A DNA stretch of 64,000 bases from Synechococcus sp. Tobar12-5m-g (lineage in GTDB: Bacteria; Cyanobacteriota; Cyanobacteriia; PCC-6307; Cyanobiaceae), in NCBI RefSeq assembly GCF_024345415.1, contig NZ_JAGQBB010000018.1, positions 1 through 64,000 of the forward strand. Reading direction: 5' to 3'. Position 1 is the first letter of the stretch. Every line of letters begins with the position of its first letter. Under the pieces are notes generated by a model. That model was not told the DNA's origin, did not search any database, and saw only the letters and a program-made list of their open reading frames with translations. The position numbers were made by a program, and so were the translations under genes. This document shows, piece after piece, positions 34,439 to 52,479 of this stretch.

Positions 34439-34443
34439 GGAGA

Positions 34444-34450
34444 CCTCCTC
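34444..34450 (-). promoter_or_regulatory. Shine-Dalgarno site deciding the hybrid kinase start
   Basis: On the minus strand GAGGAGG lies 5 bases before the ATG at 34438. It is unusually strong for this genome, where most starts rely on overlap coupling, and favours 34438 over the in-frame ATG at 34486. Confidence 0.55.
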
Positions 34451-34482
34451 AGTGGCGTGCGCAGGATTAAGCATGCCAAGCC

Positions 34483-36111
34483 TCATGTCAATTCTCCGGC
34501 AGCCCTGTGTCTACGCCATTCTCGGAAACGACTCAAGGCAGCGCAGAGGTCATCGTGGCGAAGGGGTTTGGACAGAAAGTCATTCATTCCGGCGGCTTGA
34601 CAGTCCTGGCGATGGGAATTGAACGAATAGGCTGTGAGGGCAATCACATAAAGCCCAGAATACCCTTGGGAACGCAAGCGACGTGTCGCCGCCATTCCGT
34701 CGAGCTTGGGCATTTCGATGTCCATGAAGACCAGATCAATGTCGCCAGCCTCGATGCGATCGATGGCCGCCTGACCGTCGCCTACCAACTCCGCTTTCAG
34801 GTCCAACTTGGCCAGCATCAATTCCAGCACCCGTTGATTGACGCGGCTATCATCGGCAACTAGAATCCCGATCAAGTCACCGAATTCGCCTGTGGATTGC
34901 GCCTTGGCATCCTCGCGCTGAGGCTGAATCGTCAACCCGAAAGGTAACTTCACCGCAAAGCAGCTCCCTTCCCCAAGGATCGATTCAACAGAGATATGCC
35001 CTCCCATCAGCTTGCAGAGCCGGAAGCAGATGGCAAGGCCGAGACCGGCACTCTGTGAGGTCTGTGCTGGATTGGAGTGCCGGATGAATTCCTCAAAAAT
35101 GAAAGGCAGAACATCGGCGGGAATGCCGATCCCCGTATCGGTGACACGAAACAGTAACTCCTGTTCGCTGCCCACCGCCGGTGCCAGCTCGATCGAGAGA
35201 CAGATCGTTCCCTGATTTGTATACTTACAGGCATTTCCAAGTAAGTTGAAGAGGATTTGACGCAGTTTCAGATCATCCCCAACCAACCATCTCGGCATGT
35301 CTGGCGCGACGGAAAACTCCAGCTTGATGCTCCTGATGGCTGCTTGATGCTGAAACAGTCTCAAGCAGTCATCGAGTAAAGCATGAAGGTCGAATTTCCT
35401 GGAATTAAGCTTCAGGCGACCAGTCTCGATCTGAGAAATGTCGAGGATGTCATTGATTAAGCCAAGCAGATGCTCGCCACTGTCGTGAATGGTATCGACC
35501 ATCTCCCTCTGGTTCTCACTCAAGGGGCTATCGAGTAACAGCTCAGTCATTCCGAGAACCGCATTCAATGGGGTTCGGATCTCATGGCTCATGCTCGATA
35601 GGAATCTTGTCTTTGACTGACTGGCAGACTGGGCCACATCTCGTGCCAGCAGCAGCTCGTGGGTTCTTTCACCCACCTGTATCTCTAACTGATCACGAGC
35701 CTCGATCAACTTATCCTGAGCCTGCACGATCGCGCTCTGATCCCTGAAAGTGAAGACCAGTGAAGGCTTGTTCGGTATATTGACCGTAGCCCAGCAAACT
35801 TCGATGACCCTGCGCGGACGGGTGGGAGTCAGTTCCCATGTGACTTTTCCTGCGCCGCTTCTCGCCCAGAACAACAGACAATCCGCAGGCTCGGTGCGTC
35901 CGGCTTGGTAGCGTTGGGGTAGAAGCTTGGTCAAGGAGTTCCCCAGGCACTGTAAACGTGATCGTCCAACGAATCGATCGAAGGACGCATTGGTCCACTC
36001 CACGATCCCATCCAGATCAGTGAAGGCAAGGCCTTCCTCAACGACTCCCAGCGCCGCCTCCAGTCGCCCCAGGGTGGTTCGGAGTTGGGTGACGAGATTC
36101 AGATCCGCCAT
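34483..36111 (-). CDS. PAS-sensor hybrid histidine kinase
   Basis: A 542-aa soluble kinase without membrane segments. A PAS domain spans about residues 15-125 (GLAFTDLDGIVEWTNASF), a coiled coil 130-165 follows, then HisKA with H176 ([11 protein letters not shown]), an ATPase domain (LLGNACKYTN, DTGIGIP, AGLGLAIC) and a receiver with D464 (MDIEMPKLDG). The gene is noticeably AT-richer than the window average. It follows the PAS-only gene by 7 bases and overlaps the possible upstream start of the next kinase. Confidence 0.9.
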   Translation of the reverse strand: MADLNLVTQLRTTLGRLEAALGVVEEGLAFTDLDGIVEWTNASFDRFVGRSRLQCLGNSLTKLLPQRYQAGRTEPADCLLFWARSGAGKVTWELTPTRPRRVIEVCWATVNIPNKPSLVFTFRDQSAIVQAQDKLIEARDQLEIQVGERTHELLLARDVAQSASQSKTRFLSSMSHEIRTPLNAVLGMTELLLDSPLSENQREMVDTIHDSGEHLLGLINDILDISQIETGRLKLNSRKFDLHALLDDCLRLFQHQAAIRSIKLEFSVAPDMPRWLVGDDLKLRQILFNLLGNACKYTNQGTICLSIELAPAVGSEQELLFRVTDTGIGIPADVLPFIFEEFIRHSNPAQTSQSAGLGLAICFRLCKLMGGHISVESILGEGSCFAVKLPFGLTIQPQREDAKAQSTGEFGDLIGILVADDSRVNQRVLELMLAKLDLKAELVGDGQAAIDRIEAGDIDLVFMDIEMPKLDGMAATRRLRSQGYSGLYVIALTAYSFNSHRQDCQAAGMNDFLSKPLRHDDLCAALSRFREWRRHRAAGELT

Positions 36112-36475: not shown

Positions 36476-36795
36476 CCCTGATGTCGCCAACAGATTAATC
36501 GATTGTAGCTGGGTGGTTCCACCCGCTGGCCATGGCACAAGGACCTAACCCACGATCGCGCTCCCGGGACCCTCGCCTCAGTGTCGGTTCATGCCTGCAG
36601 CGGCCGTTGGGTCCTTGCACGGCTCAGCGGGTCGATGCCCTCGGTGCCGCAGTGCATGGCCCAAGGAGTGGATCGTATCAAGAAAGCGGAACCATCCCTG
36701 ATCGCCCTTGCGTGCGGGCCGATCAGTATGGATTGCCAGATGCCACAAGCTCGCACTCAACCAATGGTACGATCAATAACGTACGAGGCGCACTA
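36476..36795. other. Intergenic region between divergent PAS and STAS genes
   Basis: A 320-base non-coding stretch from which the PAS-kinase operon (left) and the STAS gene (right) diverge, so it should hold both promoters. The last 60 bases before the STAS ATG are AT-richer and contain GGTACGATCAATAACGTACG, a loose palindrome (GTACG/CGTAC). No convincing -10/-35 pair, RNA gene or small frame is evident. Confidence 0.5.
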
Positions 36796-37128
36796 ATGAA
36801 TGATCTCTACATCCTCAGGCCTACTGGTTTCATCGATGCTCAGAATGGCAGGGACCTACGGGACAGAATCGGGTCTGTGCTCGCCGAGAAGCCAAGGGAC
36901 ATCCTGATCGATTGCCAGGATGTTGAGTTTATGGACAGCAGTGGATTCGGCGCCTTGGTCTCCGCGCTCAAACGGGTGAGAGAGCATGGCAAGCAGTTGT
37001 TCCTATGCAGCCTCAACAGCCAGCTGCGCGTCGTTCTCGAGCTCACCGGAACTGACCGGGTATTCTCTATCTTTGCGAACAGCCACGATTGCTTCACCTT
37101 TGTGTCACAACGCCAGTCCGATTCCTGA
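36796..37128 (+). CDS. STAS-domain anti-sigma-factor antagonist (SpoIIAA/RsbV-like)
   Basis: A 110-aa single STAS domain. The first strand and turn (LYILRPTGFIDAQNGRDLRDRI) and FMDSSGFGALVSALKRV are typical; S48 of DSSG aligns with the serine phosphorylated in SpoIIAA. Such proteins switch partners according to phosphorylation. The convergent gene 24 bases on encodes a receiver-controlled PP2C phosphatase, the expected activator. No sigma factor lies nearby; an RsbW-like kinase is encoded at about 52.0 kb. Confidence 0.88.
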   Translation: MNDLYILRPTGFIDAQNGRDLRDRIGSVLAEKPRDILIDCQDVEFMDSSGFGALVSALKRVREHGKQLFLCSLNSQLRVVLELTGTDRVFSIFANSHDCFTFVSQRQSDS

Positions 37129-37152: not shown

Positions 37153-38325
37153 TCAGGACAGGAGGGCCAGGATCACCGAGTAGTCATCCGTGAAGGGTGC
37201 ATCTGCCGTGATGACTTGAATCCGACCCAGTAAGTGATCCAGTCCATCTGTGGCCCCCAGAAGGCCTCGGCACTCCTCCACCACATCCATGAATTCGGGC
37301 AGCGACCACATCGTTCCGCCGGGAAGGGGCACTTCGTAGAGCCCATCGCTGTAGACCAGCAAGCAGGCCCCCTCCCCCACCGGAAGGCTCTCGGTGATGT
37401 AAGTCGCCTCTTCGAACAAACCAATGCCCATTCCCTGTCCTTGAAGCCAGCGAGCGGGGAACGCGCCGCCTCTGGACCAGAGCATGGCAGGGGGATGGCC
37501 CGCGCTGGCGAAGCGCAGTGTCCTGGTTGAGGGTTGATACACCCCGTACCACAGGGTCAGGTAGCGGCCTTGGTGCTGCTCCATCTGAAAGCCGGCGTTG
37601 AGGGCCTTGAGCACAGCAGCCGGCTCACGGAGATCGACGGGCAGCGAGCGGGAACGCAGCTGGTTGTGCACCGAGATCGAAGGGAAGGCCGCCGCCAGTC
37701 CATGACCGGAGGCATCAGCGAGGTAAACCACGAAGTGATCCTCGTCGAGCCAGAAGTAGTCGAACGAATCGCCGCCCAGCTCATGGGAAGGAACGAAACA
37801 GGAATCCACAGTCACAGCACCACTGATCGCCTTCGGGAGCAACGAGCGCACATAGCTGGCCGCCTCGGCCAGCTCCTGATCCAGGCGTGCCTTCTGGCGC
37901 TGCAGCTCATCGGCCAGGTCCTTGAGGCGTTCGTTGGCCTGGTGGAGGCGAATGCCAGACCGAACGCGTGCCAGCAACTCCTCGGGATCGACCGGCTTGC
38001 TGAGGAAATCATCGGCGCCACAATCCAGCCCGGTCACGCGATCCTCCACCCGGGAGCGTGAAGTCAGCAGGATGAAATGGGCCGCCTCCAGGACCGGATC
38101 AGCCTTGACCGCCCGGCAGACCTCCAGACCATCCATGCCCTCCATCAGCCAGTCGCAGAGGATCACCGTGGGTGGGCTGAGGCGTGCCTGCTGCAGAGCG
38201 CTCTCACCCGAATCGACCACCAGGATGTGATAGCCCTGCGACTTAAGTCGGGCCTCGAGTATGCGGGAATGGATGCGGTCGTCATCCACCAGCAGGATCG
38301 TGATCTGGGCGGAACCAACGTCCAT
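37153..38325 (-). CDS. Receiver-PP2C (RsbU-like) phosphatase
   Basis: A 390-aa response regulator with a serine phosphatase output. Receiver domain residues 8-122, phospho-acceptor D58 (LCDWLMEGMDG) and the conserved lysine in LSKPVD; a coiled coil at 125-155; then a PPM/SpoIIE-type domain with the metal-binding acids in GGDSFDYFWL, LADASGHG, VYSDGLYE and FTDDYSVIL. It should dephosphorylate a STAS protein when an upstream kinase phosphorylates its receiver. The neighbouring hybrid kinases are the obvious candidates. Confidence 0.9.
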   Translation of the reverse strand: MDVGSAQITILLVDDDRIHSRILEARLKSQGYHILVVDSGESALQQARLSPPTVILCDWLMEGMDGLEVCRAVKADPVLEAAHFILLTSRSRVEDRVTGLDCGADDFLSKPVDPEELLARVRSGIRLHQANERLKDLADELQRQKARLDQELAEAASYVRSLLPKAISGAVTVDSCFVPSHELGGDSFDYFWLDEDHFVVYLADASGHGLAAAFPSISVHNQLRSRSLPVDLREPAAVLKALNAGFQMEQHQGRYLTLWYGVYQPSTRTLRFASAGHPPAMLWSRGGAFPARWLQGQGMGIGLFEEATYITESLPVGEGACLLVYSDGLYEVPLPGGTMWSLPEFMDVVEECRGLLGATDGLDHLLGRIQVITADAPFTDDYSVILALLS

Positions 38326-38364: not shown

Positions 38365-40965
<2,601 letters not shown>

Positions 40966-40981
40966 CAGCGCCACCCCCCAG

Positions 40982-41245
40982 TCATCCTGGACTCCTGGCT
41001 GCATTCACAGCCGCGTGGGTGATCCAGTATTCGCCGAAGGCATGCATGATCTGATCGCCCGACAGGTCGAGTTCGTCGGAAGCAGCCGCCACCAGTCGAT
41101 GGGTCACGTCATCGGAATAGGCCTGGTATGCGGAGAAGAAGTCAAGATCCTGGAGGTCAGCTCTCTCCCTGTTGCGCTGCCACGTATCTTCGCCGTGATG
41201 GTTGGTCACCATCTGATGGATTGCCCGGTCGACAAGTCCGTACAT
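40982..41245 (-). CDS. Truncated H-NOX (heme NO-binding) protein
   Basis: An 87-aa protein equal to the N-terminal half of an H-NOX domain: [48 protein letters not shown] and [13 protein letters not shown] follow the cyanobacterial H-NOX start closely. A full domain is about 180 aa. Everything after the EYW motif is missing, including the proximal heme histidine and the YxSxR heme-propionate motif; the frame ends AARSPG and stop, 16 bases before the kinase. Heme binding therefore seems impossible. It is either a decayed gene or a heme-free regulator of the HNOBA kinase. Confidence 0.8.
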
Positions 41246-41400: not shown

Positions 41401-42759
41401 TCAGGGGGGCTGTGGCAGGAGTCCAGGCTCCACCATGACATCCAGCCTCGGAGACTGTTTCTCCTGCAAGGCCAACCCTAAGATAATCATTCCAGGCCAA
41501 TAAAGATAGACAAGAATCTCCAGGTTCTCACCAAATGTATAAAGGAATAGGATCACGATCATGCTGAAGCCCACGGAGCCAAGTCGGTATCTGGGATTCG
41601 AGGCACGCCACATCAGAGTAACTACTGTGGCCAGCATCGGCACCGCCAAGGCAAGAAAACCAACAATCCCCTTAACAAATAAAAGACCTGCCCAGGTGTG
41701 ATGGGAACCGATCGGCATCCATTCCACGACATGGCTCCCCCTTTCGACGACTCCGTGACCCCACATCGGTGCCTCTGTTTCCCAGCGATAAATGGCAATG
41801 CGTTTCAAGGCCATTCGTACCCGGGTGGAATCAGCGCGAGCCGATTTGAAGGACTCCCAGAAGTTGTCGAGAAATGCGATCACGCTAGGTGCAAAAAGAC
41901 CGCTTAGATAACTGATCACGCCAAGACCGATCAACACCATGGGACGGCCAAGGCTGGTTAGCAACATGGTAATGAGTGGGATCAGAAACAGAGACAACTG
42001 AGCAAGTCGCGATTTACATATAAGGCACAACAAGATAGCGCCTGCCAACCCAAAGACTTTCCATTTCTTGTCCTTCTCCTGAAGTGAAAGCATGAAGTAG
42101 ATATTTCCAACAAATCCCAGGGCCGGTGCCCAGGGCGTAAACAGCCGCCATCTCAACTGATCAGTGGTTGGATCGATTTCAAAAAGCCTCACATCGAAGA
42201 ACTCCGGTCCTGGTCCACCGATGGCCTTCAGGGGTGATACGTAAAGAATTTCAGGCAGGTGCAGATAAGGCGTGATCAACAATAATGGCGTAATCAGGAG
42301 GGTCTGGAAGCCAATGATGCAGACGGCCCGGATGATGATTTCTGGCCTGATTCGAAGGTTTCCAGCCAGGGGATACAGTGCCAGAGCAGCCCAGCCTTTA
42401 GCCCAGCCGATGCTGGATTTAACGATCATGTCAACGCCGAGATTGTAGTCAAGGTGCCCCGCCAACAGGGCAACTTCCATGGTCACCATGCCGATGATCC
42501 AGAACCAGATGACCCAGGAGATGCTGATTCTGTCTGTTTTGGGGGTGGAGGCATCCTGAGCGAGGATTTTAACCAGCAGAAGCGCAAGAAGTACCCATCC
42601 CAGGATGGAGCCAACAATGTAAAGCCCACCGATCAACCAGAGGGGGTATGTCCAGGTGATGGCCAACCAGACGATATGTTCTGGAATGTTTTCAGGACAG
42701 ATCTTGTCAGACGGTCGTTTTTCGTTCGGCGCATGGGCCGACTGCAGGGAATCGCTCAT
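41401..42759 (-). CDS. O-antigen ligase/polymerase-like membrane protein (Wzy type)
   Basis: A 452-aa protein with about eleven membrane helices and a large loop near residues 300-350 containing RIAIYRWETEAPMWGHGVVERGS and GSHHTWAGLLFVKGI, the Wzy_C pattern (GxGxxxxxH ... HN/HHTW). It should polymerise lipid-linked repeat units at the periplasmic face of the membrane. It overlaps the wzz stop (ATGA) and ends the wza-wzz-wzy operon. Its composition is less GC-rich than the chromosomal background. Confidence 0.82.
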   Translation of the reverse strand: MSDSLQSAHAPNEKRPSDKICPENIPEHIVWLAITWTYPLWLIGGLYIVGSILGWVLLALLLVKILAQDASTPKTDRISISWVIWFWIIGMVTMEVALLAGHLDYNLGVDMIVKSSIGWAKGWAALALYPLAGNLRIRPEIIIRAVCIIGFQTLLITPLLLITPYLHLPEILYVSPLKAIGGPGPEFFDVRLFEIDPTTDQLRWRLFTPWAPALGFVGNIYFMLSLQEKDKKWKVFGLAGAILLCLICKSRLAQLSLFLIPLITMLLTSLGRPMVLIGLGVISYLSGLFAPSVIAFLDNFWESFKSARADSTRVRMALKRIAIYRWETEAPMWGHGVVERGSHVVEWMPIGSHHTWAGLLFVKGIVGFLALAVPMLATVVTLMWRASNPRYRLGSVGFSMIVILFLYTFGENLEILVYLYWPGMIILGLALQEKQSPRLDVMVEPGLLPQPP

Positions 42760-44189
42760 GGAGAGATCCGGGCCGAGATCTTCTTAATCCAGGGCTTGCG
42801 AATCCACAGAATCCAGAGACCGAGGCTCGAGAATATGGAGCCGGCCACAGCGCCTGCGAGAACAAAGCTGGTTTTCGGTGCACTTGGTTTGGTGGGCAAC
42901 GTAGGTTCTACGGCCATCTGAATCAGTGGATAAGCCGAAAACAGATCACCCTGGCCCAGATCAAGCTTGGCCAGCGTTGAGGCGAAGACCGCCTGGGCGA
43001 TCTGTTCATTCCGCAACAGCGCTTCCAGTGTGGACAGCGGTTTGGCAATGCCCCTGAGACGCTTTTCCAGGCTCTTGATCTGTGTTTCGAGAGCAATGGC
43101 CTGGCCGTCAAGGGCGCGCTGGTCAGCCTGGACGTTGACGAGATTCTGCAGCAATGAATCGCGGCCAGAGTTGCTGGCCACCGTTGAAAGTGCCAGCTTG
43201 CTGATAGCAAGTAGGGGCAGATCTTTGCCAAGAATCTGCTTGCTTCTTTGCAGCAAGTTTTTTAGGGCAGAGTTCTGCTTGTTACTTTCCCTTATCACCC
43301 TTGGATTCCGTGGTCCAAACTTGCCTGTAAGCAGTCGAAGCGAACTGGTCGCTTCGCTGTAGTCTTTGAGATGCTGCTGAAAAACCTGGTCAACCTGAAG
43401 CTGAAAGGCATCAGCGGCTTGGGAAGACGAGAGCCCGAGGCTTAAGCTCAACTGGGCAAGGCGCCTAGCTGCCGACTGTTCATTAGCCAATACTTCCGCA
43501 CGTTGTCGTCGCAGTTGCTCAATGTTCCCAGAGAGATCCCTCACCTGATCAGATGAACTCAAACCTGAGCTGAATTTAAAATTCGTGACTTTCTGCTGAG
43601 CTTCCTGCAGCTTGTTCTGAACAGACATGAGGATCGACTCCGCTGGAATCTCCCGTTCCCTCATTTCCTTTTCGCGCAGTTCGTTCAGTCTCTTCTGTGC
43701 TGAACGGTAGAGGGCAATCGACTTCTGCTGAGCTTCTTCGGGCGATCGACCCGTAATTTCAAACTGCATCATTGTTGTATTATCGATCAGTTTGATTTTC
43801 GGTTTACCAAACTTGGCGGGATCCACATTGCTGAGCCTGGATGCTTCGCTGATCACCTGATCGCTCATAAAGATATATTCATAATTCGCTCGGGTGTCAT
43901 AGGTAGATCCGCTTATTCCTGCACCAGAGGAGGAGGTGGCTTGGCCGATTTCTGGTAAATTAAGATTCGTGGCCGAGCTCGTGCTTGGCAGGATCAATGC
44001 CCACTTGCTGGTGTAGATTGGCTTGGTGACAAAAAGATAAAGAATCGCAGAAGTCCAGATGAATCCATTGGCAAATAACATTAGAAGGAAATAGCGATTC
44101 GATCTCTTCTTAGAGAGGAGCCGAAGCTGATCGGGTAGGCTGGCGTATTGCTTCCGCAGCTTTGAGTAGAGAAGTTGTGGATTAGTCAC
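42756..44189 (-). CDS. Polysaccharide co-polymerase (Wzz/GumC-like)
   Basis: A 477-aa chain-length determinant. A membrane helix near residue 35-58 (FLLMLFANGFIWTSAILYLFV), a long periplasmic coiled-coil region (for example EEAQQKSIALYRSAQKRLNEL and QKVTNFKFSSG) and a C-terminal proline-rich helix (PTLPTKPSAPKTSFVLAGAVAG) give the Wzz fold. No Walker motifs or tyrosine tail follow, so it lacks a fused BY-kinase. I chose the GTG whose GTGA overlaps the wza stop; a GTG three codons earlier is possible. Confidence 0.87.
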   Translation of the reverse strand: MTNPQLLYSKLRKQYASLPDQLRLLSKKRSNRYFLLMLFANGFIWTSAILYLFVTKPIYTSKWALILPSTSSATNLNLPEIGQATSSSGAGISGSTYDTRANYEYIFMSDQVISEASRLSNVDPAKFGKPKIKLIDNTTMMQFEITGRSPEEAQQKSIALYRSAQKRLNELREKEMREREIPAESILMSVQNKLQEAQQKVTNFKFSSGLSSSDQVRDLSGNIEQLRRQRAEVLANEQSAARRLAQLSLSLGLSSSQAADAFQLQVDQVFQQHLKDYSEATSSLRLLTGKFGPRNPRVIRESNKQNSALKNLLQRSKQILGKDLPLLAISKLALSTVASNSGRDSLLQNLVNVQADQRALDGQAIALETQIKSLEKRLRGIAKPLSTLEALLRNEQIAQAVFASTLAKLDLGQGDLFSAYPLIQMAVEPTLPTKPSAPKTSFVLAGAVAGSIFSSLGLWILWIRKPWIKKISARISP

Positions 44190-45253
44190 GGATTCCACAC
44201 GTTAAGGATCAACGCGGCTGGTGTCAGCACGTCGGAAATCGACTTGATCACATCTCGAAAAGTTGTAATAATGGAGTCGTAGCAGGCGACTGCATCGTTG
44301 GGCATCAGGTAAGGATTGACACGATCATTGTTGGAGTTCATCAGCAGGTCATCGACCTTTCTCTCCAGATAGTTTGTCTTGCCTGTGCTTTCATCAGTGC
44401 GTACAAGAATCGCCTTTCGGCCCGCATTGGTGAAGCGCGTTCCTCCGGCACAGTTGGCGGCAACCACGGCCTGTGAAAATCGGTTTCCGTACGTGAATGA
44501 CGTGGCATCACGACTGATCCCTGACGGGGCATTGCCCGTGGCAGGAACAGTTAGGTTGGAAAGGAATACCTTGACTCCCGCCAAGGTGATAGGGGAGGGA
44601 CGAACAATCAGGGGGTTGACCTTTTCAGTAGCCTGTACGATGACCTGATCGCCGGCGATCAAGGCGACATCCTGCAATGGCTGTCCAGTGAAGATTCCTG
44701 TGAAGTCGTGAAAACTTTCCTTGCCACCCCTGATCAGCTTAATAGTGGAAACATCAGCTGTAGGCATTACTCCTCCGGACGACTTGAGAGCGACCGATAA
44801 AAAACGATTAGGTGGATATTGACCCGATACGGTGACTGGAGCTTCGTCGGGTCGATCTGCTGACTTTTCATTAATCAAGACTCGTCCTGGGAAAAAGACA
44901 TCTCCGGCGACAAAGACATTGATCGGTGCCCAGCTGACGACGTTGACGCTCAGTTGCAAAAATGATGGCTGGAAAAAGCCGCCATTGATCAGCATGCTTC
45001 GCAGTTCAGCGCGCAAGACATCAGGCTCCTTGCCAACCACCTCAACTGATGGAAGATAGGGAATATCGATCTTTCCATCTATATTTACATCATATGTGCC
45101 GTTGAATTCTTCGCCGTCCAGGATGGTGACCCGTATCCGGTCTCCCGGTGATAAAGGCAAGGCCTTGGCAGAGGGCGTGCAGACAACGACCTGAAGCAAT
45201 GCCAGGCTGAGGCCACCAATGATTCCCATTAGATTCCTGCCGGGATCTGCCAT
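44186..45253 (-). CDS. Polysaccharide export protein (Wza/GumB-like)
   Basis: A 355-aa periplasmic/outer-membrane protein. A signal peptide (residues 1-31, cleaved after PSAKA; no lipobox) leads into the Poly_export motif LSPGDRIRVTILDGEEFNGTYDVNIDGKIDIPYLP and SLBB-like domains (INVFVAGDVFFPGRV, ALKSSGGVMPTADVSTIKLIR, GDQVIV), quoted by segment. It should form the export channel for the exopolysaccharide. First gene of the leftward operon. The C-terminal 130 residues with two cysteines go beyond a minimal Wza and may be clade-specific. Confidence 0.87.
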   Translation of the reverse strand: MADPGRNLMGIIGGLSLALLQVVVCTPSAKALPLSPGDRIRVTILDGEEFNGTYDVNIDGKIDIPYLPSVEVVGKEPDVLRAELRSMLINGGFFQPSFLQLSVNVVSWAPINVFVAGDVFFPGRVLINEKSADRPDEAPVTVSGQYPPNRFLSVALKSSGGVMPTADVSTIKLIRGGKESFHDFTGIFTGQPLQDVALIAGDQVIVQATEKVNPLIVRPSPITLAGVKVFLSNLTVPATGNAPSGISRDATSFTYGNRFSQAVVAANCAGGTRFTNAGRKAILVRTDESTGKTNYLERKVDDLLMNSNNDRVNPYLMPNDAVACYDSIITTFRDVIKSISDVLTPAALILNVWNP

Positions 45254-45596: not shown

Positions 45597-46583
45597 ATGA
45601 AGGCCCTTCATCTGCTTCCACCTGGCGGGACAACCTGGGGTGGGGGCATTCCTGCCACCCTCTTCAGCCTGGCCGAGTCGCCCCAGTTGCAGTGGGTTTC
45701 CTTCCGGCAGGTGCCGCTCGAATTTGCGGTGGAAACCCTTCGCAGCTGGCGTCCCGATGTGGTCATCTGGCACCCGGCCTGCTCCTGGAGAGGGCTGCCT
45801 GATCAGTTAAGACTGAACGGCATTCCGAGTGTCCTTGTCGAACATCACTATTGCCAGGGATTTGAGACGTACCAGGTTCCCAATCGGCTGAGATTCCGAA
45901 TGATGCTACGGCTCGGGTATTCACTTTTCGATCGTGTCGTTTCCGTTTCATACGGTCAGGCCCGCTGGATGATGGATTCGAAGCTGCTGCGGGCTTCCAG
46001 GCTGCGTGTCATTCCCTTCAGCCGTACCCTGGACGAGTTTCTGGCGCTGCCCATCGGCCGCTCTCCCCACACCCCCCTCCGTCTCGGGGCCTTCGGTCGT
46101 TTCGTGAAACAGAAGGGTTTCGATACCCTGATCAAGGCGGTCCAGCTGCTGCCGCTCGGCTCCGTGCAGTTATTACTGGGGGGTGATGGGGTGTTGGATT
46201 CCGAACTCCGCAGCCTGGCCGCGGGCCATCCAGCCATCACCTTCCTTGGACCGATCACCAACGTGCCTGCCTTCCTCCATGACTGTGATGCCATGGCCAT
46301 TCCTTCCCTCTGGGAACCGTGGGGGAATGTCTGTCTCGAAGTGCGGGCCGCTGGTCTCCCGGTGATCGTCAGCACCGTCGGTGGCTTGAGCGAACAGATC
46401 GAAGGATGTGGCTTTGCGGTGCCGCCCGCTTCGGCCACAGAACTGGCGGCGGCCATTCAGCAACTCATCGCCCTTTCGGCCGATGATCGCTCCCGCCTGG
46501 CCGACAGGGCTCGCGCGTCGAGTCTCAACAGCTGGGATCAATTCTGCCGCTCCTGGGACAGTCTTCTGCGGGAGCTGGCTTGA
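45597..46583 (+). CDS. Glycosyltransferase family 4 protein
   Basis: A 328-aa GT-B glycosyltransferase. LRLGAFGRFVKQKGFDTLI and LLLGGDGVLDSEL are the nucleotide-sugar side motifs, and PSLWEPWGNVCLEVRAAGLPVI is the E(x7)E retaining-GT signature. The N-terminal GGGIPATLFSLAE replaces the usual GGxxR/xxL motif for the acceptor side. It should add a sugar to the lipid-linked repeat unit. Its stop overlaps the flippase start (TGATG). Confidence 0.88.
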   Translation: MKALHLLPPGGTTWGGGIPATLFSLAESPQLQWVSFRQVPLEFAVETLRSWRPDVVIWHPACSWRGLPDQLRLNGIPSVLVEHHYCQGFETYQVPNRLRFRMMLRLGYSLFDRVVSVSYGQARWMMDSKLLRASRLRVIPFSRTLDEFLALPIGRSPHTPLRLGAFGRFVKQKGFDTLIKAVQLLPLGSVQLLLGGDGVLDSELRSLAAGHPAITFLGPITNVPAFLHDCDAMAIPSLWEPWGNVCLEVRAAGLPVIVSTVGGLSEQIEGCGFAVPPASATELAAAIQQLIALSADDRSRLADRARASSLNSWDQFCRSWDSLLRELA

Positions 46584-47854
46584 TGCGTCTCAACATCCTG
46601 AGGCGTTTTCGATCGGAAGACCGCTTCCTGAGGAACATCGGCTGGATGGGGCTCTCAGAATTCGGCATTCGGATTTCGAGACTTCTTGCCACTGTCATAT
46701 TGGCCAGATTGCTGAGTCCCAATGATTACGGGATCGCCGCCCTGGTCATGATGACGCATGAGTTCATCCGGGTGTTCACCAGGAACGGCATTGGCGAGAA
46801 ACTCGTTCAGGCTCCAGCCTCTGAAGTTGAGGAGATGTGCAACACCGCCTTCACCTTGAACTGGCTGCTTGGAATCCTGCTTTTTTTCATCCAAACCCTT
46901 GGCTCTTTCGCCGCTGCCAGTTTCTATGGACAGTCCGAACTGATTCGGCCGATCATCTTGATCGGATTGACCTATCTGATCTATCCACTTGGATCCGTGC
47001 AGACATCGCTGATTCTCAGGGAGAATCGCATGAATGTTTTCGGCATGACCCAATTGGCTTCCGTCATGACGGACAATATCCTGATCGCAATCTTTGCCCT
47101 CAATGGTTTTGGAATGTGGTCCATTATCCTACCTAAATTTCTTGTTGCTCCGATTTGGGTCATCATGGTCTACCGCTTTCATCCCTGGCGGCCGAACTGG
47201 CGACCCACGCTATTGCACTGGCGCCGAATACTAGGATTCGGATCTCGTATTCTTGGCGTCGAACTTCTAAATACTTTGCGTGAGAACATTGATTATCTGC
47301 TGATCGGTCGCTTTATCGGTGTTAGCCAGCTGGGCATCTATTACTTCGCTTTCAATGCCGGCCTTGGCATGAGCTTAAGTGCCGTGAATGCGATGGGATT
47401 GACGCTTTATTCAGATCTCTGTGACGTCAGCCACGACCGGTTGTTGCTCCAACAGCGCTTTCAGCGGAATCTCAGCACGATCGCCAAAGTGATCATTCCA
47501 CTGGTGACACTTCAAGCGTCGCTTGCGCCGCTGTACGTCCCTATCGTCTTTGGGCAGAAGTGGGTCGATCGGGGAGCTGTGCCCATCCTGATCGTCATTT
47601 GCCTATCGGCGCTCTCCAGGCCTTTTGCCAATGCGGCTTCCATGTTGTTCCGCTCCATCGGCCTGCCCCAGGTGGATCTCATCTGGAATCTGGGGTTCAC
47701 CCTTTGCCTGGCGGTCTCGGTTTTCGTCGGAACTCACTACGGCATCTTCGGTGTTGCCGTGGCCGTGATGGCCACCCATCTGCTGCTTCAACCCCTTTAC
47801 GCCCTCTGGGCATGGCGGGTCGTTCTGCTTCACCCTGCTTCCTGGGCCAGTTGA
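46583..47854 (+). CDS. Wzx-type polysaccharide flippase
   Basis: A 423-aa membrane protein of about twelve helices in the MATE/MVF-like polysaccharide transporter family. LRNIGWMGLSEFGIRISRLLATVILARLLSP (in two parts) and DYGIAALVMM open it as in RfbX/Wzx; RENIDYLLIGRFIGVSQLGIYYFA is the second-half signature. It should flip lipid-linked oligosaccharides to the periplasm for Wzy. AT-richer than most genes in the window. Confidence 0.88.
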   Translation: MRLNILRRFRSEDRFLRNIGWMGLSEFGIRISRLLATVILARLLSPNDYGIAALVMMTHEFIRVFTRNGIGEKLVQAPASEVEEMCNTAFTLNWLLGILLFFIQTLGSFAAASFYGQSELIRPIILIGLTYLIYPLGSVQTSLILRENRMNVFGMTQLASVMTDNILIAIFALNGFGMWSIILPKFLVAPIWVIMVYRFHPWRPNWRPTLLHWRRILGFGSRILGVELLNTLRENIDYLLIGRFIGVSQLGIYYFAFNAGLGMSLSAVNAMGLTLYSDLCDVSHDRLLLQQRFQRNLSTIAKVIIPLVTLQASLAPLYVPIVFGQKWVDRGAVPILIVICLSALSRPFANAASMLFRSIGLPQVDLIWNLGFTLCLAVSVFVGTHYGIFGVAVAVMATHLLLQPLYALWAWRVVLLHPASWAS

Positions 47855-47857
47855 ACC

Positions 47858-48835
47858 ATGTCTGTTCCGTCCGTATCGGTCGTCATCCCCGCCTTCAATG
47901 CCTTCGCTTCCCTGGCCCAGACCATCGCCTCCGTTCAGGCCCAGACCTGCACCGACTGGGAGGCCCTGATCATCGACGACGGTTCCACCGATGGCACAGC
48001 GACCCTGGTTCGCGAACTCCAGGCGAGAGATTCGCGACTGCGCCTGCTTTCGGTGCCGAACCGGGGAGTATCGGCTGCCCGTAATCGCGGTGTGGCAGAG
48101 ACCCATTCTCCCCTCATCGCCTTCCTCGATGCCGATGACCTCTGGCATCCTGACAAGCTCCGTTTCCATGTGGAGTGTCATGCCCGCCAGGCCGAGTTGG
48201 GGGTGAGCTTTGCCAAGGTGGGATTCCTTTCCCCTGATGGGAAGCCCACCGGTTTGGTCGCTTCCCATCCGCAACATGCTCTAAGGCCCGTGGACTTCAT
48301 CTGTGAAAACCCGACGACGACGACGTCGAACTGGGTCCTGCGGCGGGAGGTCTTCGAAACCGTGGGGGGCTTCGATGAAGCGATGAGTTATTCGGAAGAC
48401 CTGGAATGGCTGCTTCGGGTCGCCTGTTACGGCGCCTGGCGGATCGCGCCGATTGATCGGGTCCTCACCTACTACCGCACATCGTCGGGTGGACTTTCTT
48501 CCAGCCTTCAGAGGATGGAGCAGGGCTGGCTTCGGCTGATCTCCAAAGCTCGCTGCTATGCCCCTGGGCTGGTCGAGAGCAACTTCGCAACAGCCCAGGC
48601 CGTTCACCTTCGCTACCTGGCAAGACGCTCCCTTCGTCTGCAAGACGATCCAGCCGCCGGGGCCGACTTTCTGCTGCGGGCCCTTCGATCGGACTGGCGT
48701 CTCCTGATCCGGGAGCCCCGCCGAACAGGACTGACGGCTCTTGCGGTCTTCGCCAGACTGCTGGAGCACAACTGCAGGAACTGCTATCCGTCGGCACGCC
48801 GCCTCCCGAGGCAGCACCCGGATGCGAACCCATGA
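47858..48835 (+). CDS. Glycosyltransferase family 2 protein
   Basis: A 325-aa GT-A enzyme. VSVVIPAFNAFASLAQTIAS, DWEALIIDDGSTDGTA and AFLDADDLWHP carry the nucleotide-binding Asp residues and the DxD motif. NPTTTTSNWVLRREVFETVGGFDE and YSEDLEWLLRVA form the acceptor side with the catalytic ED. It is closely related to the next gene (shared YRTSSGGLSS/YRVSSGGLSA and the RYLARRSxR tail), so the pair probably arose by duplication. Starts 3 bases after wzx. Confidence 0.9.
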   Translation: MSVPSVSVVIPAFNAFASLAQTIASVQAQTCTDWEALIIDDGSTDGTATLVRELQARDSRLRLLSVPNRGVSAARNRGVAETHSPLIAFLDADDLWHPDKLRFHVECHARQAELGVSFAKVGFLSPDGKPTGLVASHPQHALRPVDFICENPTTTTSNWVLRREVFETVGGFDEAMSYSEDLEWLLRVACYGAWRIAPIDRVLTYYRTSSGGLSSSLQRMEQGWLRLISKARCYAPGLVESNFATAQAVHLRYLARRSLRLQDDPAAGADFLLRALRSDWRLLIREPRRTGLTALAVFARLLEHNCRNCYPSARRLPRQHPDANP

Positions 48836-48869
48836 AGACCGCTTGAGCAGAACTTCTGAGCCGAACTTC

Positions 48870-49985
48870 ATGACCCGGGCCGACCACTCTTCCGCCGCAC
48901 CAAGCGGCTCTGCCGCCGGGTCGCCCCTGGTAGCGGTCGTGATGCCGCTGTACAACTCTGCCACCACGGTGAGGGCCAGCCTGGAGTCGGTGCTGGCCCA
49001 GACCTACCGCCACCTTGAGATCCTGGTGGTGGACGACGGCTCCACCGATGAGGGGGCTGCCATCTGCCGCAGTTACGACGATTCCCGAATCCGGATCGTC
49101 CAGCAGCGCAACCGGGGGCTGGCCGGGGCACGCAACACCGGGATCCGCCAGGCCCGGGGTGTCATCCTGGCCTTTCTCGACAGCGACGATCTCTGGCTGC
49201 CGCAGAAGATCGAGCGGCATGTGGAGCATCTCCGCTCCGCGCCAGGGGTGGGGGTGAGCTATTCCCGATCCGCCTTCATCGATGCCGACGGCCGGCCGCT
49301 GGGCATCTACCAAACCCCACCGCTGCACGCCATCACCCCGGAGCTGATTCTCTGCCGTAATCCGATCAGCAACGGGTCGTGCGTGGTGATGCGCCGCGAA
49401 GTGCTCGACGGGATCCGCTTCGAGGCGAACCTCTACGGCAGCACCGAGAGCTACTGGTTCGACGACAGCTTCCGCCAGTCGGAAGACATCGAATGCTGGT
49501 TGCGCATCGCCCTGCAGACGAAGTGGCGGATCGAGGGCATCCCGGAGGCGCTCACCCTCTATCGGGTGAGCAGCGGGGGTCTCTCGGCCAACATCGAGAA
49601 GCAATTCGCCAGTTGGCAGCGGGTTCTCGACAAGACGGCCGGCTATGCGCCCGAACTGATCAGCCGCCATGGTGACCGGGCCCGGGCCTACCAGCTGCGT
49701 TATCTGGCCCGTCGCAGCATCCGCGAACGTCAACCGCGCCAGGGGGCGAAACTCGTCCACGAGGCACTGCTCCGCTACCCGAGGCTGCTGCGGGAAGAGC
49801 CGGGGCGCACCCTCATCACATTAGCGGCGGCCTATCTAGGCATGCTGCTGCCGCAGGCGGTCTATAGGCTTCTGGAGAACACCATGATGCGGATCACAGG
49901 GCTGATGCAGCGTCTGACCCTTGGGCTCCATGCGCACCGGCAGGATACGGTTCCCTGCCCCGGTTCTGGATCCCGTGAGGGCTGA
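48870..49985 (+). CDS. Glycosyltransferase family 2 protein (paralogue)
   Basis: A 371-aa GT-A enzyme parallel to its upstream neighbour: VAVVMPLYNSATTVRASLES, ILVVDDGSTDEGA, LAFLDSDDLWLP, NPISNGSCVVMRREVLDG, QSEDIECWLRIA and YRVSSGGLSA. The C-terminal RYLARRSIRERQPRQGAKLV also aligns. It should add a different sugar, as paralogues in one cluster usually do. An upstream ATG at 48822 would overlap the previous gene. Confidence 0.9.
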   Translation: MTRADHSSAAPSGSAAGSPLVAVVMPLYNSATTVRASLESVLAQTYRHLEILVVDDGSTDEGAAICRSYDDSRIRIVQQRNRGLAGARNTGIRQARGVILAFLDSDDLWLPQKIERHVEHLRSAPGVGVSYSRSAFIDADGRPLGIYQTPPLHAITPELILCRNPISNGSCVVMRREVLDGIRFEANLYGSTESYWFDDSFRQSEDIECWLRIALQTKWRIEGIPEALTLYRVSSGGLSANIEKQFASWQRVLDKTAGYAPELISRHGDRARAYQLRYLARRSIRERQPRQGAKLVHEALLRYPRLLREEPGRTLITLAAAYLGMLLPQAVYRLLENTMMRITGLMQRLTLGLHAHRQDTVPCPGSGSREG

Positions 49986-49989
49986 TGCG

Positions 49990-50475
49990 ATGCGGCTTCT
50001 GCTCGTCTGCTCCTCAGGTGGACATTTCAAGGGTCTTTTCCAGCTGCAACACTTCTGGAGCCTGCACCAGCGCACCTGGGTGACCTTCGACACCTCCACC
50101 ACCCGAGCTGGTCTGGAGGGGGAGTCGGTCACTTGGGCCTTCAGCCCCACCAACCGCAATCTGCCCAACCTGATCCGCAACGCCCTCCTTTCCTGGCAGG
50201 TGCTGAGGCGTCCCAGGCCGGACGTAATCCTCTCCACCGGCGCTGGTGTGGCGGTTCCCTTTTTGATCCTTGGCAAGCTCCTGGGTTGCCGCACCGTGTT
50301 CGTCGAATCGATCACCCGCATCGAAACCCTCAGCCTCTCGGCCCGTCTGGCCCTGCCCTTCCTCGATGTTCTCTACGTGCACTGGCCGCAGCTGCAGGCC
50401 CGTTATCCACGGGCGGAACTGATCAGCGCGACAGCTGACCTGCGTCCTGCCGAGCTCGAGGGGTCTACCCAATGA
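49990..50475 (+). CDS. Alg14/PssD-like glycosyltransferase membrane subunit
   Basis: A 161-aa protein resembling the Alg14 half of a split GT-B enzyme: LLLVCSSGGHFKGLFQL with the GGH motif, RPDVILSTGAGVAVPFLIL and VFVESITRIETLS. In yeast, Alg14 anchors the catalytic Alg13 to the membrane; bacterial pairs (PssD/PssE, CpsF/CpsG-like) do the same for an exopolysaccharide sugar. The next gene encodes the Alg13-like half with a 4-base overlap. A GTG 15 bases upstream is an alternative start. Confidence 0.85.
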   Translation: MRLLLVCSSGGHFKGLFQLQHFWSLHQRTWVTFDTSTTRAGLEGESVTWAFSPTNRNLPNLIRNALLSWQVLRRPRPDVILSTGAGVAVPFLILGKLLGCRTVFVESITRIETLSLSARLALPFLDVLYVHWPQLQARYPRAELISATADLRPAELEGSTQ

Positions 50476-50996
50476 TCCTCGTCACCGTTGGCACAGAGAA
50501 GTTTCCCTTCAACCGCCTGATGCGATGGGTGGATCAGCTGCTCGAGGACGATCTGATCGGGGACGAGGAGGTGGTTGTGCAGTACGGCACCTGCACCGAT
50601 CTACCGGGGGGGGCGAAGGTCTATCGCCTGCTCAAAGAACATGACTTCCAGGACTTGGTACGCAGGGCCCGTCTGGTGATTGCCCACTGCGGTGAGGGCA
50701 CGGTGCTGCTGCTCGACGGCATGGAGACCCCGTTCCTGCTGGTGCCCCGCAGCCAGCGCTACCAGGAGCACGTGGACGACCATCAGGTCGAACTCGCCCT
50801 GGCCCTCGCGTCGATCGGTGTGCCGATCGCCTGGGGGCCGGCCGATCTGGTGCGCTTCCTGGCGGCGCCCACCAAGGTGTCGATCGGGGAGCTGTCGGTG
50901 ACGGCCGCCCAGGCCGTCTGCAGCCGCCTGGAGCGACTCTTTCCAGCCGTATCCCCAGCTCCCGACTCGGCGTTCCTCCCTCCCATGACCCGATGA
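50472..50996 (+). CDS. Alg13/PssE-like glycosyltransferase catalytic subunit
   Basis: A 174-aa protein matching the C-terminal half of GT28 enzymes: MILVTVGTEKFPFNRLMRW at the start, VVVQYGTC, ARLVIAHCGEGTVLLLDG (the UDP-sugar binding glycine-rich helix) and FLLVPRSQRYQEHVDDHQVELA, a strong PssE/Alg13 signature. It needs the Alg14-like subunit encoded just upstream. Its stop overlaps the ATG of the STAS fragment (ATGA), so that start is translationally coupled. Confidence 0.87.
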   Translation: MILVTVGTEKFPFNRLMRWVDQLLEDDLIGDEEVVVQYGTCTDLPGGAKVYRLLKEHDFQDLVRRARLVIAHCGEGTVLLLDGMETPFLLVPRSQRYQEHVDDHQVELALALASIGVPIAWGPADLVRFLAAPTKVSIGELSVTAAQAVCSRLERLFPAVSPAPDSAFLPPMTR

Positions 50997-51136
50997 GCGC
51001 CCCTAGTACCACAGGCAGCATCCCCGTCCAACCCGGTGGGGTCACGGTGACTGTCCATAGGGGTGTCCTGCTGCTTGGCTTCCCGAGGCGTTTCACTGTG
51101 GGGGAGGCCGTGGCCTTCCGCCAGTGTCTGGAATAG
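50993..51136 (+). pseudogene. N-terminal STAS fragment cut off by an in-frame TAG
   Basis: Translation from the coupled ATG gives 47 residues (GGVTVTVHRGVLLLGFPRRF, then TVGEAVAFRQCLE), the first two strands and first helix of a STAS domain, and then meets TAG at 51134. The same frame continues without break into LLPSHPDTRRIVLDFSRTEL and the rest of the STAS domain. A CAG-to-TAG change (LEQLLPS) would explain it. This is either a nonsense mutation or sequence error, or a site of readthrough or restart. Confidence 0.75.
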
Positions 51137-51139
51137 CTT

Positions 51140-52012
51140 TTGCCCAGCCACCCCGACACGCGGCGCATCGTGCTGGATTTCAGCCGCACCGAGCTGATCG
51201 ACAGCAGCGGCCTGGGCTCCTTGATCCCCAACCTGAAGCTGGCTCGCGACCGAAAGATTCCGATGGAGGCCTGGAGCGCCGGCGCCCAGGTGAAACTGGC
51301 CCTCTCGCTGATCGGACTGGACCAGGCGCTGCCGGTGGTGGCCGGCAGCGAGGGGCTGAATCCGGCCCAGGCGGTGAACACCAAGGAGCGGCCCGCCATC
51401 ACTCACCCCTCGGTGCGATCGCTGCCCAAACGCCTTCTGGACATCATGGGGGCCCTGGTGGGGCTAGCGATCACCCTGGTGCTGTTTCCGTTCCTCGCCC
51501 TGGCGATCCGGCTGGACAGTCCCGGGCCGATCTTTTTCTGCCAGGTGCGGCTGGGATGGATGGGGCGGCGCTTCAGGCTCTGGAAACTGCGCTCGATGGT
51601 GGTGAACAGCGAAGCGCTGCGCACGACGGTTCGGAATGAGGCCTCCGGGGCCTTCTTCAAGAACGCCAACGACCCACGCATCACCCGGGTGGGGAGGTTC
51701 CTGCGCCGCACCAGCCTTGACGAACTCCCCCAGTTCTGGAATGTGCTGATCGGCGACATGAGCCTGGTGGGCACACGGCCTCCCACGCCGGATGAGGTGG
51801 ATCGCTACGCCGTTCCCAACTGGCAACGGCTGGATGTTCGGCCCGGACTCACTGGCGAGTGGCAGGTGAACGGACGCTCCAGGGTGATCGACTTCGAGGA
51901 TGTGATCCGGCTTGACCTGCGCTATCAAGAGAATTGGAGCTTCGACTACGACCTCAGGCTCATTCTCAAGACCCTCGCTGTGATGTTCAGCAGGCGCTCG
52001 GGTGCCGCCTGA
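51140..52012 (+). CDS. STAS domain fused to priming sugar-phosphate transferase (5' part split off)
   Basis: As it stands a 290-aa frame from TTG, one codon after the TAG. It begins in the middle of a STAS domain (IVLDFSRTELIDSSGLGSL, with a SpoIIAA-like phosphorylatable serine) and continues from about residue 95 into a WcaJ/WbaP-type bacterial sugar transferase: KRLLDIMGALVGLAIT (membrane hairpin), IRLDSPGPIFFCQVRLG, WKLRSMV, TSLDELPQFWNVLIGDMSLVGTRPP, RPGLTGEWQVNGRS. This enzyme starts each repeat unit by moving a sugar-1-phosphate to undecaprenyl phosphate. The catalytic domain is complete; the STAS domain is complete only if the TAG is read through. Confidence 0.82.
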   Translation: MPSHPDTRRIVLDFSRTELIDSSGLGSLIPNLKLARDRKIPMEAWSAGAQVKLALSLIGLDQALPVVAGSEGLNPAQAVNTKERPAITHPSVRSLPKRLLDIMGALVGLAITLVLFPFLALAIRLDSPGPIFFCQVRLGWMGRRFRLWKLRSMVVNSEALRTTVRNEASGAFFKNANDPRITRVGRFLRRTSLDELPQFWNVLIGDMSLVGTRPPTPDEVDRYAVPNWQRLDVRPGLTGEWQVNGRSRVIDFEDVIRLDLRYQENWSFDYDLRLILKTLAVMFSRRSGAA

Positions 52013-52014
52013 CA

Positions 52015-52479
52015 ATGGCCCTCCCCCACCCGGAGAGTGGCGGGCAGGCCAGTTTCCCCAGCCGCCTGGAGGAGACTCGGGCCCTGCTCGACTGGTTTGA
52101 GCACAGCAGGCCCCACGACATGGACCCGATGCTATGGATCCAGGCCCAGACGGCCCTGGTGGAGGGATTCTCCAATGCCGTACGCCATGCCCACGCTCAC
52201 CTCGCCTGCCCACCGCCGGTGGAGGTGGCACTGGAGATCACGCCGGCGCACTTGAAGCTCCACATCCGGGATCGCGGCGCTCCCTTCGACATCAGCGCCG
52301 CCTGGACCGGCGCTGAAGATCCTCCGCTTGGGGATGGCCGGCCGGAACTGCCCGAACGTGAAGCCCATTGGGGACTGATCATGCTGAGCAGGCTCCGCCG
52401 GGATTTCGGCTGGGTGATCCGCTACGACCCCCTCCCTGGGGGCGGCAATGAGCTGATGCTGAAGCGGGCGCTCACCTGA
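52015..52479 (+). CDS. RsbW/SpoIIAB-like serine kinase (anti-sigma-factor type)
   Basis: A 154-aa GHKL ATPase of the anti-sigma-kinase kind. The N box is VEGFSNAVRHAH (E50, N54), the G1 box is LHIRDRGAPFD (D86), and HWGLIMLSRL is the short G2 region. Such kinases phosphorylate the serine of a STAS partner. It begins 2 bases after the STAS-sugar transferase fusion, so the fusion itself is the likely substrate. No sigma factor is encoded nearby. Convergent with the next gene. Confidence 0.87.
   Translation: MALPHPESGGQASFPSRLEETRALLDWFEHSRPHDMDPMLWIQAQTALVEGFSNAVRHAHAHLACPPPVEVALEITPAHLKLHIRDRGAPFDISAAWTGAEDPPLGDGRPELPEREAHWGLIMLSRLRRDFGWVIRYDPLPGGGNELMLKRALT

Follow-up and report, generated by a model that had tools for sequence, protein, structure and literature searches.

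What does an RsbW-like serine kinase act on when it is encoded directly behind a STAS domain that is fused to a priming sugar-phosphate transferase? The question is raised by a 64-kb window (the whole stretch of DNA that was analysed, 64,000 nucleotides) of Synechococcus sp. Tobar12-5m-g, which is part of contig C10 of a 2.95-Mb genome and has its sequence relatives among the cyanobacteria. At the right end of the window, a polysaccharide operon on the + strand closes with the STAS-transferase fusion and then the kinase. We consider it probable that these genes belong to a cyanobacterial partner-switching module that has the priming phosphoglycosyl transferase itself as its output, and not a sigma factor. 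The claim is a genomic one; its observed basis comprises the domain identities, the linkage and co-occurrence of the genes, the conservation of motifs, and the co-divergence of kinase and fused STAS domain.

In such a module, the RsbW-like kinase would bind the fused STAS domain and phosphorylate the serine of its DSSG motif, a free STAS protein would compete for the kinase, and a receiver-PP2C phosphatase, driven by hybrid histidine kinases, would take the phosphate off. The phosphorylated or kinase-bound state of the fused STAS domain would then decide if the lipid carrier receives its first sugar-phosphate, and hence if polysaccharide is made. That the signal passes from sensor kinase to phosphatase and on to the STAS domain is predicted from the protein families; the last step, from STAS state to transferase activity, we infer.

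The fusion gene and the kinase gene

The fusion gene (50993..52012, + strand) starts with an ATG at 50993 that overlaps the stop of the upstream gene (ATGA), and ends with a TGA at 52010-52012; its reading frame is interrupted by an in-frame TAG inside the STAS domain (51134..51136, + strand). The frame behind this stop (51137-52009) matched Bac_transf PF02397 (E 6e-64) and, below the curated cut-offs, also the second half of the STAS domain. When the TAG was read through, the N-terminus was over the Pfam cut-off for STAS PF01740 (25.1 vs 22.6 bits) and narrowly missed that for STAS_2 (29.1 vs 29.2). The TAG may have arisen by a recent mutation or stem from an error in the assembly; among 23 fusion places in 251 family genomes, a stop inside the matched part was found for the fusion of the window only. 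Because of this one stop, the switch is probably broken in the genome of the window, or the transferase is produced without an intact STAS domain.

The profile of the STAS part matched TM1442, SpoIIAA (1th8_B, 1auz) and RsbV (6m36_B), and in the alignment to 1th8_B the IDSSGLG of the fusion falls on the MDSSGLG of SpoIIAA. The serine codon aligned with the second Ser of the SpoIIAA DSSG (51206..51208, + strand) thus encodes a candidate phosphoserine; the aligned serine is presumably the residue that is phosphorylated in SpoIIAA (Ser58). By its profile and motif, the fused N-terminus is a STAS domain of the anti-sigma-factor-antagonist fold with DSSG, its frame interrupted in the window. The original prediction for this locus, a SpoIIAA-like STAS domain that is fused to a sugar-phosphate transferase and has to be 'repaired', is borne out on all of these counts.

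The Bac_transf catalytic domain (51428..51988, + strand) has WbaP and PglC as its closest solved relatives, both of which were matched by the profile of the transferase part (WbaP 30us_A, E 2.9e-53). In its SLDELPQ stretch, Ser, Leu, Asp, Glu, Pro and Gln are invariant in 30 aligned rows, including the pair Asp237-Glu238, which we take to be the DE dyad of monotopic phosphoglycosyl transferases. From these domain features, the C-terminal part of the fusion is classed as a monotopic phosphoglycosyl transferase (PglC/WbaP type), and its predicted activity is the transfer of a sugar-1-phosphate to undecaprenyl phosphate.

The kinase gene (52015..52479, + strand) begins with an ATG at 52015, two bases past the TGA of the fusion and just as had been predicted, and has its stop at 52477-52479. 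The protein matched HATPase_c_2 PF13581 (E 5.9e-13), and its N-box, EGFSNAVRHAH, lies within the stretch that was aligned to RsbW 6m36_A in the profile search (E 1e-8). With the HATPase fold, the N-box Glu/Asn and the nucleotide-binding glycines, the gene is, as far as its sequence can tell, one for an RsbW/SpoIIAB-type kinase, and this kinase is predicted to phosphorylate the serine of a partner STAS domain.

A predicted structure of a Nostoc locus, for which the read-through translation of fusion and kinase in one frame was folded as a single chain, gave confident STAS and kinase parts (most 10-residue blocks at 89-97 pLDDT) and a less confident transferase part (pTM 0.64). Foldseek matched PglC, SpoIIAB and SpoIIAA/TM1442 to this model. 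A second aligner led from the STAS part to SpoIIAA/RsbV and from the kinase part to UsfX/SpoIIAB; its list held STAS and kinase chains only, and is uninformative on the transferase part. One of the fold matches of the kinase part was 6kko_B (SiaB-SiaC complex). The model was used for fold matches only.

Conservation of the pair in the family and the class

In the family set of 251 genomes, for which the fusion was scored by a STAS match at E 6e-45 or better, the fusion was found in 23 genomes, the kinase in 24, both in 22 and neither in 226. All 22 pairs lie on the same contig and the same strand with the kinase directly behind the transferase (by script on the listed places), and the gap between STAS match and kinase is 305-614 bases, which is the room of the transferase part. 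The exceptions are explained: the fusion of G586 lies at base 21 of its contig, the kinase of G558 lies at base 318, and G026 retains a deletion remnant. At the latter locus (L015, G026:C1:3046877-3050368) the kinase is intact, and only the last ~45 residues of the fusion are left and joined to another frame; the locus is a remnant of a lost cluster. Three other genomes of the window's own genus were searched, and none has the fusion or the kinase. The fusion is not full-length in G008 (frame change in the linker), G586 (contig end) and G519 (255-residue frame); intact fusions are the rule, and intact relatives are numerous. In G008 (L018/L135, a Kiruna metagenome-assembled genome, MAG) the receiver-PP2C frame is interrupted too, by decay or by MAG errors.

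Across the class, a STAS profile (1e-12) matched 286 of 388 genomes, free STAS proteins included, and among the best 30 loci of this search a kinase frame is present in 27, for one of them (L062) on the opposite strand. The class pool comprised 205 distinct fusion frames, including those of the window and of a Synechocystis plasmid, and 197 of these have at least 900 bp downstream; a fusion was termed linked if a same-strand kinase frame starts between -200 and +1000 bp relative to where the fusion frame ends. By this definition 106 of the 197 fusions are linked. In the 106 linked kinases E50, N54 (N-box), H60 and G120 are invariant, and G88 (99%) and D86 (92%) nearly so. The share of linked fusions was 64 of 79 among the named loci with enough sequence (the named loci being the best 80 of 199 relatives, selected with a pattern of DSSG type) and 47 of 127 in the set not picked by motif; the profile A1, built from kinase-linked members only, and the DSSG-picked loci both favour linked members. 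A FastTree tree with long branches and open forks accounts for the linked state by 10 changes, vs 65 with shuffled labels; linkage is therefore mostly inherited, not scattered.

As a control, 150 listed Bac_transf places in 53 genomes were compared, with the fused status taken from the listed STAS-profile places and with those kinases that were found with the kinase of the window; a kinase lies next door in 6 of 20 fused and in 0 of 130 unfused transferases. A chance neighbourhood is ruled out by this control together with the family co-occurrence and the class-wide linkage, and an oddity of this window alone by the relatives that carry the same fusion-kinase loci. A pair occurring only in this genome had been named as a refutation of the original prediction; the 22 adjacent family pairs and the 106 linked fusions of the class establish that the linkage is conserved.

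The kinase profile (1e-20) matched 34 of 98 phylum genomes, all of them in the class of the window, and 0 of 58 outside this class. The best 80 of 199 relatives are all cyanobacterial save for two MAGs labelled Gracilibacteria (L108) and Chloroflexaceae (L129); these carry cyanobacterial-type fusion-kinase loci and are probably mis-binned contigs. In the plasmid collection, five records cover at least 80% of the fusion, all from Synechocystis.

The motif of the fused STAS domain is conserved: 194 of 197 fusions carry the second Ser of DSSG, and of the 133 fusions that were collected without regard to the motif, 132 have both serines. For comparison, identity per STAS column has a median of 0.56 among linked fusions and 0.49 among unlinked ones. 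That phosphoserine and kinase are strictly lost together throughout the class was considered as well and is only weakly supported: the three fusions that lack the serine are all kinase-less, but so are 88 with the serine. Pairwise distances of the STAS part and the kinase correlate at 0.85 (partial correlation 0.72 given the transferase part), those of the transferase part and the kinase at a partial 0.09 given the STAS part; a faster evolution of these two than of the transferase part may account for some of the STAS-kinase correlation. The kinase thus co-diverges more tightly with the fused STAS domain than with the transferase part, which is support and not proof.

A search around 150 fusions, with the window genome's own sigma factors as queries, gave no sigma factor within 2.7 kb, and one was found in 1 of the 80 named loci (up to 20 kb each). 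The genome of the window has 11 sigma70 region 2 matches (10 over the cut-off) and none of them is on contig C10, in agreement with the earlier statement that no sigma factor is encoded nearby. These counts bear on ordinary anti-sigma control, i.e. on an RsbV/RsbW descendant that regulates a distant sigma factor and whose fusion to the transferase is incidental. A sequence and fold akin to those of SpoIIAA/SpoIIAB and RsbV/RsbW would suit such control. We regard it as very improbable, given that the class has retained the fusion without a sigma factor being found close to it, and that in the family the kinase and the fusion occur either together or not at all, apart from the three explained cases.

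The free STAS protein, the phosphatase and the polysaccharide operon

A genome-wide search for partner-switch members yielded five STAS, four HATPase_c_2 and two SpoIIE/PP2C places in the genome of the window. The window itself holds one further STAS and one PP2C gene 14 kb upstream of the fusion; they encode a free STAS protein of the anti-sigma-factor-antagonist type (36532..37128, + strand; motif FMDSSGFG) and, convergent with it, a response-regulator receiver with a SpoIIE/PP2C phosphatase (37153..38325, - strand). The interpretation as a partner switch is therefore better founded than the original prediction knew, since phosphatase and free STAS protein are encoded in the same region. PP2C phosphatase, STAS protein and kinase are encoded together in the window, in all seven of the loci L073-L079, and in 8 of 10 family genomes.

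In the 20-kb flanks of eight fusion-bearing relatives, a free STAS gene convergent with a receiver-PP2C gene lies beside the cluster in six; G053 is without the convergent pair, and G056 has a weak PP2C match only. With the window and G008 included, the convergent arrangement is present in 8 of the 10 family genomes mapped. In the flanks of G026 (cluster lost) and of G140 (another family; 13.7 kb upstream only) none of the genes searched for was found. At least 14 of 23 family genomes have another STAS match no more than 20 kb from the fusion, a lower bound because the free STAS proteins of G038, G071 and G373 are below the threshold.

Fusion, kinase and free STAS gene stand in a row in all seven of L073-L079 (Nostoc, Dolichospermum, Anabaena, Richelia, Tolypothrix), each with a receiver-PP2C gene that adjoins the free STAS gene in five and lies 5-6 kb further in L073 and L075. 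In L088, L093, L114, L115, L128, L142, L144 and L147 the kinase is followed by the PP2C gene, with the free STAS gene behind on the other strand. The PP2C phosphatase is not general, with 20 of the 80 named loci having one; within 2.7 kb it is found for 19 of 73 linked vs 3 of 77 other fusions, and two of these three (L098, L120) have a kinase slightly further away.

The motif of the free STAS protein is DSSG in most loci inspected for it. It is DSN in three family genomes, G079 (L082/L276), G038 (L270) and G373 (L277), with the genes at L082:3415-3819, L270:14857-15297 and L277:13972-14247, and DSA in L079; the fused STAS domain retains DSSG in these modules. Judged by the motifs, the fused domain and not the free STAS protein looks like the phosphorylatable partner there, which favours a role for the fused domain and argues against a plain RsbV role for the free STAS protein. 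The DSN and DSA proteins are perhaps locked, non-phosphorylatable competitors for the kinase.

On the far side of the phosphatase lies a hybrid histidine kinase with HNOBA domain, receiver and Hpt (38365..41004, - strand), and upstream of the free STAS gene are two hybrid histidine kinases with receiver (34483..36111 and 32549..34486, both - strand). The HNOBA (heme NO binding associated)/Hpt hybrid kinase adjoins the phosphatase and is a possible signal input to polysaccharide synthesis.

These switch genes are separated from the fusion by polymerase-like and export genes (41401-45253) and then by the operon. The former comprise a Wzy/O-antigen-ligase-like protein (41401..42759; weak match, under the Pfam cut-off), a 480-aa protein (42756..44198) and a polysaccharide export protein (44186..45253; Poly_export), all on the - strand. 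The 480-aa protein has no Pfam match and a TIGR03007 match far under the cut-off; it is kept between the export and polymerase genes in relatives, and is perhaps a chain-length determinant/co-polymerase. The operon itself, on the + strand, encodes in order a GT4-type glycosyltransferase (45597..46583), a Wzx-type flippase (46580..47854; Polysacc_synt_3), two GT2 glycosyltransferases (47858..49985, i.e. 47858-48835 and 48741-49985), an Alg14-like/Alg13(GT28_C)-like glycosyltransferase pair (49921..50996, i.e. 49921-50475 and 50472-50996), the fusion and the kinase. Alg14, Alg13, fusion and kinase are consecutive in all eight mapped relatives, the fusion of L135 being split; six of these eight also show the genes for export, the 480-aa protein, the polymerase and the flippase.

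The signal could also flow in reverse: as a docking site, the membrane-bound STAS-transferase would titrate the kinase away from the free STAS protein or another partner, and a different output elsewhere, such as a sigma factor or an HmpV-like effector, would thereby be informed of the state of polysaccharide synthesis. The role of the STAS protein in SpoIIAA/RsbV systems is to release another partner, a free STAS protein is often encoded in the same module, and sigma factor matches, 11 in number, do lie elsewhere in the genome of the window. Such a flow is nevertheless unlikely in our view: no sigma factor was found near the fusions, save for one named locus, as counted above, the family module sits at the end of a polysaccharide operon, and the kinase is absent beside all 130 listed unfused transferases.

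Output of the switch and known systems

Several observations weigh against the transferase as the output of the switch, in addition to the preference for linked members and the possible rate effect that were given with their numbers. The window's own fusion is interrupted. In the class, 91 of 197 fusions are without an adjacent kinase, and 88 of these 91 keep both serines; a neighbouring kinase is therefore not needed for retention of the serines, and a distant kinase must be assumed. No phosphatase lies within 2.7 kb in 54 of 73 linked fusions, and none was detected in 60 of the 80 named loci. A free STAS protein without the second serine is not switchable as proposed for RsbV. Finally, the priming enzyme XssP of Synechocystis PCC 6803 (see below) is needed for synechan despite a degenerate motif, so that the enzyme can work without a switch, as far as the accessible text on XssP goes. 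The unlinked fusions (e.g. L153, L162, L165, L172, L189) form a second large group with the serine motif kept, and four genomes (G190, G210, G300, G326) carry both linked and unlinked fusions.

XssP is encoded on pSYSM (L072:11995-12948); it was found by the fusion profile and aligned over STAS and transferase parts. Its motif is DSAA in place of DSSG, and no kinase of the RsbW-like family was found within ~12 kb. In the accessible passages of PMC8205485, XssP is called the glycosyltransferase that primes synechan; when its gene was disrupted, blooms no longer formed and polysaccharide accumulation was suppressed, and the synechan cluster is described as under transcriptional control by XssQ/R/S. 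Those passages make no mention of a STAS domain, and the word STAS is absent from the later synechan paper. A degenerate motif, an absent kinase and a functional enzyme fit a regulatory and not a catalytic role of the STAS domain, in this one case.

The kept serines of the unlinked fusions and the functional XssP without DSSG would also suit a fused STAS domain that is structural or membrane-targeting, with the kinase acting on the free STAS protein only and the fused serine kept for the fold; in SLC26 transporters, according to the part of PMC8256260 available to us, the STAS domain has a stabilising effect on the protein. This we rate a shade lower than the reverse flow of the signal. It would leave the strict co-occurrence and adjacency in the family and the specific co-divergence of the kinase with the fused STAS domain unaccounted for; the serine pair is lost in the free STAS protein (DSN, three family genomes) and not in the fused one; and the second Ser is replaced in XssP, so that the fold tolerates its loss. 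Control of the priming transferase through its own STAS domain thus remains the preferred reading. The original prediction of a partner switch on the priming enzyme is supported in part: the tie of the module to the transferase is well supported, and the control of the enzyme by phosphorylation is a proposal; the prediction is tempered by the interrupted fusion in the window and by the fusions that have no neighbouring kinase.

With SpoIIAA/SpoIIAB and RsbV/RsbW/RsbU the module shares the STAS, kinase and PP2C families, the DSSG and N-box stretches align, and the folds match; the output of these systems is a sigma factor, whereas none is linked here and the STAS domain is fused to an enzyme. 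In the SiaA/B/C/D partner switch of Pseudomonas aeruginosa, the STAS-like SiaC is reported to stimulate a diguanylate cyclase directly; the output there is a cyclase in trans, in contrast to a polysaccharide priming enzyme in cis here. MlaB is a STAS protein of the MlaFEDB transporter complex, whose regulation is studied as far as the accessible text tells; the partner there is an ABC transporter, which MlaB reportedly regulates directly, and we know of no partner kinase of MlaB.

Closer in function, HmpU/HmpV/HmpW of Nostoc punctiforme (hormogonium motility, polysaccharide) are likewise a cyanobacterial phosphatase-STAS-kinase set tied to polysaccharide. HmpV is a STAS protein that acts on an undefined effector and is suggested to be active when dephosphorylated (PMC6495340, PMC8256260; partial texts), whereas in the present module the priming enzyme carries a STAS domain in its own chain; the likeness is one of description. 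SypA/SypE of Vibrio fischeri are also a STAS protein and a serine kinase/phosphatase that control a polysaccharide locus; SypA, the target of which is unknown according to the part of PMC8256260 at hand, is a single-domain protein, and SypE combines kinase and phosphatase in one protein, unlike the module here. By analogy with HmpV and SypA, the dephosphorylated fused domain may be the active form. The earlier statement that such pairs control sigma factors in known systems holds for SpoIIAA/AB and RsbV/W; it is too narrow in view of HmpUVW and SypA/SypE, whose outputs are undefined in these partial texts and possibly other than sigma factors.

The fusion architecture was known before, from all4160 of Anabaena PCC 7120, a glycosyltransferase with an N-terminal STAS domain (2021 review PMC8256260, citing Wang et al. 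2007) that is named among the genes for heterocyst envelope polysaccharide (PMC4390870), both sources being available in part. The all4160 and XssP proteins share the STAS-transferase layout of the module, all4160 by description alone; a kinase or phosphatase partner is undiscussed in the accessible parts of their papers, and XssP has a degenerate motif and no neighbouring kinase of the RsbW-like family. No described system of exactly this form had been known to the original prediction; this stands for the module of fusion, kinase and phosphatase, of which the literature search found no description, with subscription journals little covered and novelty thus not proven, and it gives way for the architecture, already noted for all4160.

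Partner switches are best known as controls of sigma factors, and the outputs of HmpV and SypA are undefined in the texts accessible to us; a STAS domain that is covalently joined to an enzyme names a candidate output. We lean slightly towards a class-wide switch, driven by histidine kinases, that ends in the first committed enzyme of exopolysaccharide synthesis through the enzyme's own STAS domain, with the unlinked fusions as the missing outputs of stand-alone switches such as HmpUVW. The module is found in many cyanobacteria, with the fused switch domain, the adjoining kinase and often a phosphatase near. If the reading is true, a priming transferase would be turned on and off directly by phosphorylation, and slime would be controlled via the enzyme rather than via the genes. 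This would provide a post-translational handle on slime, capsule and heterocyst-envelope polysaccharide, and would be relevant to blooms, biofilms and polysaccharide engineering.

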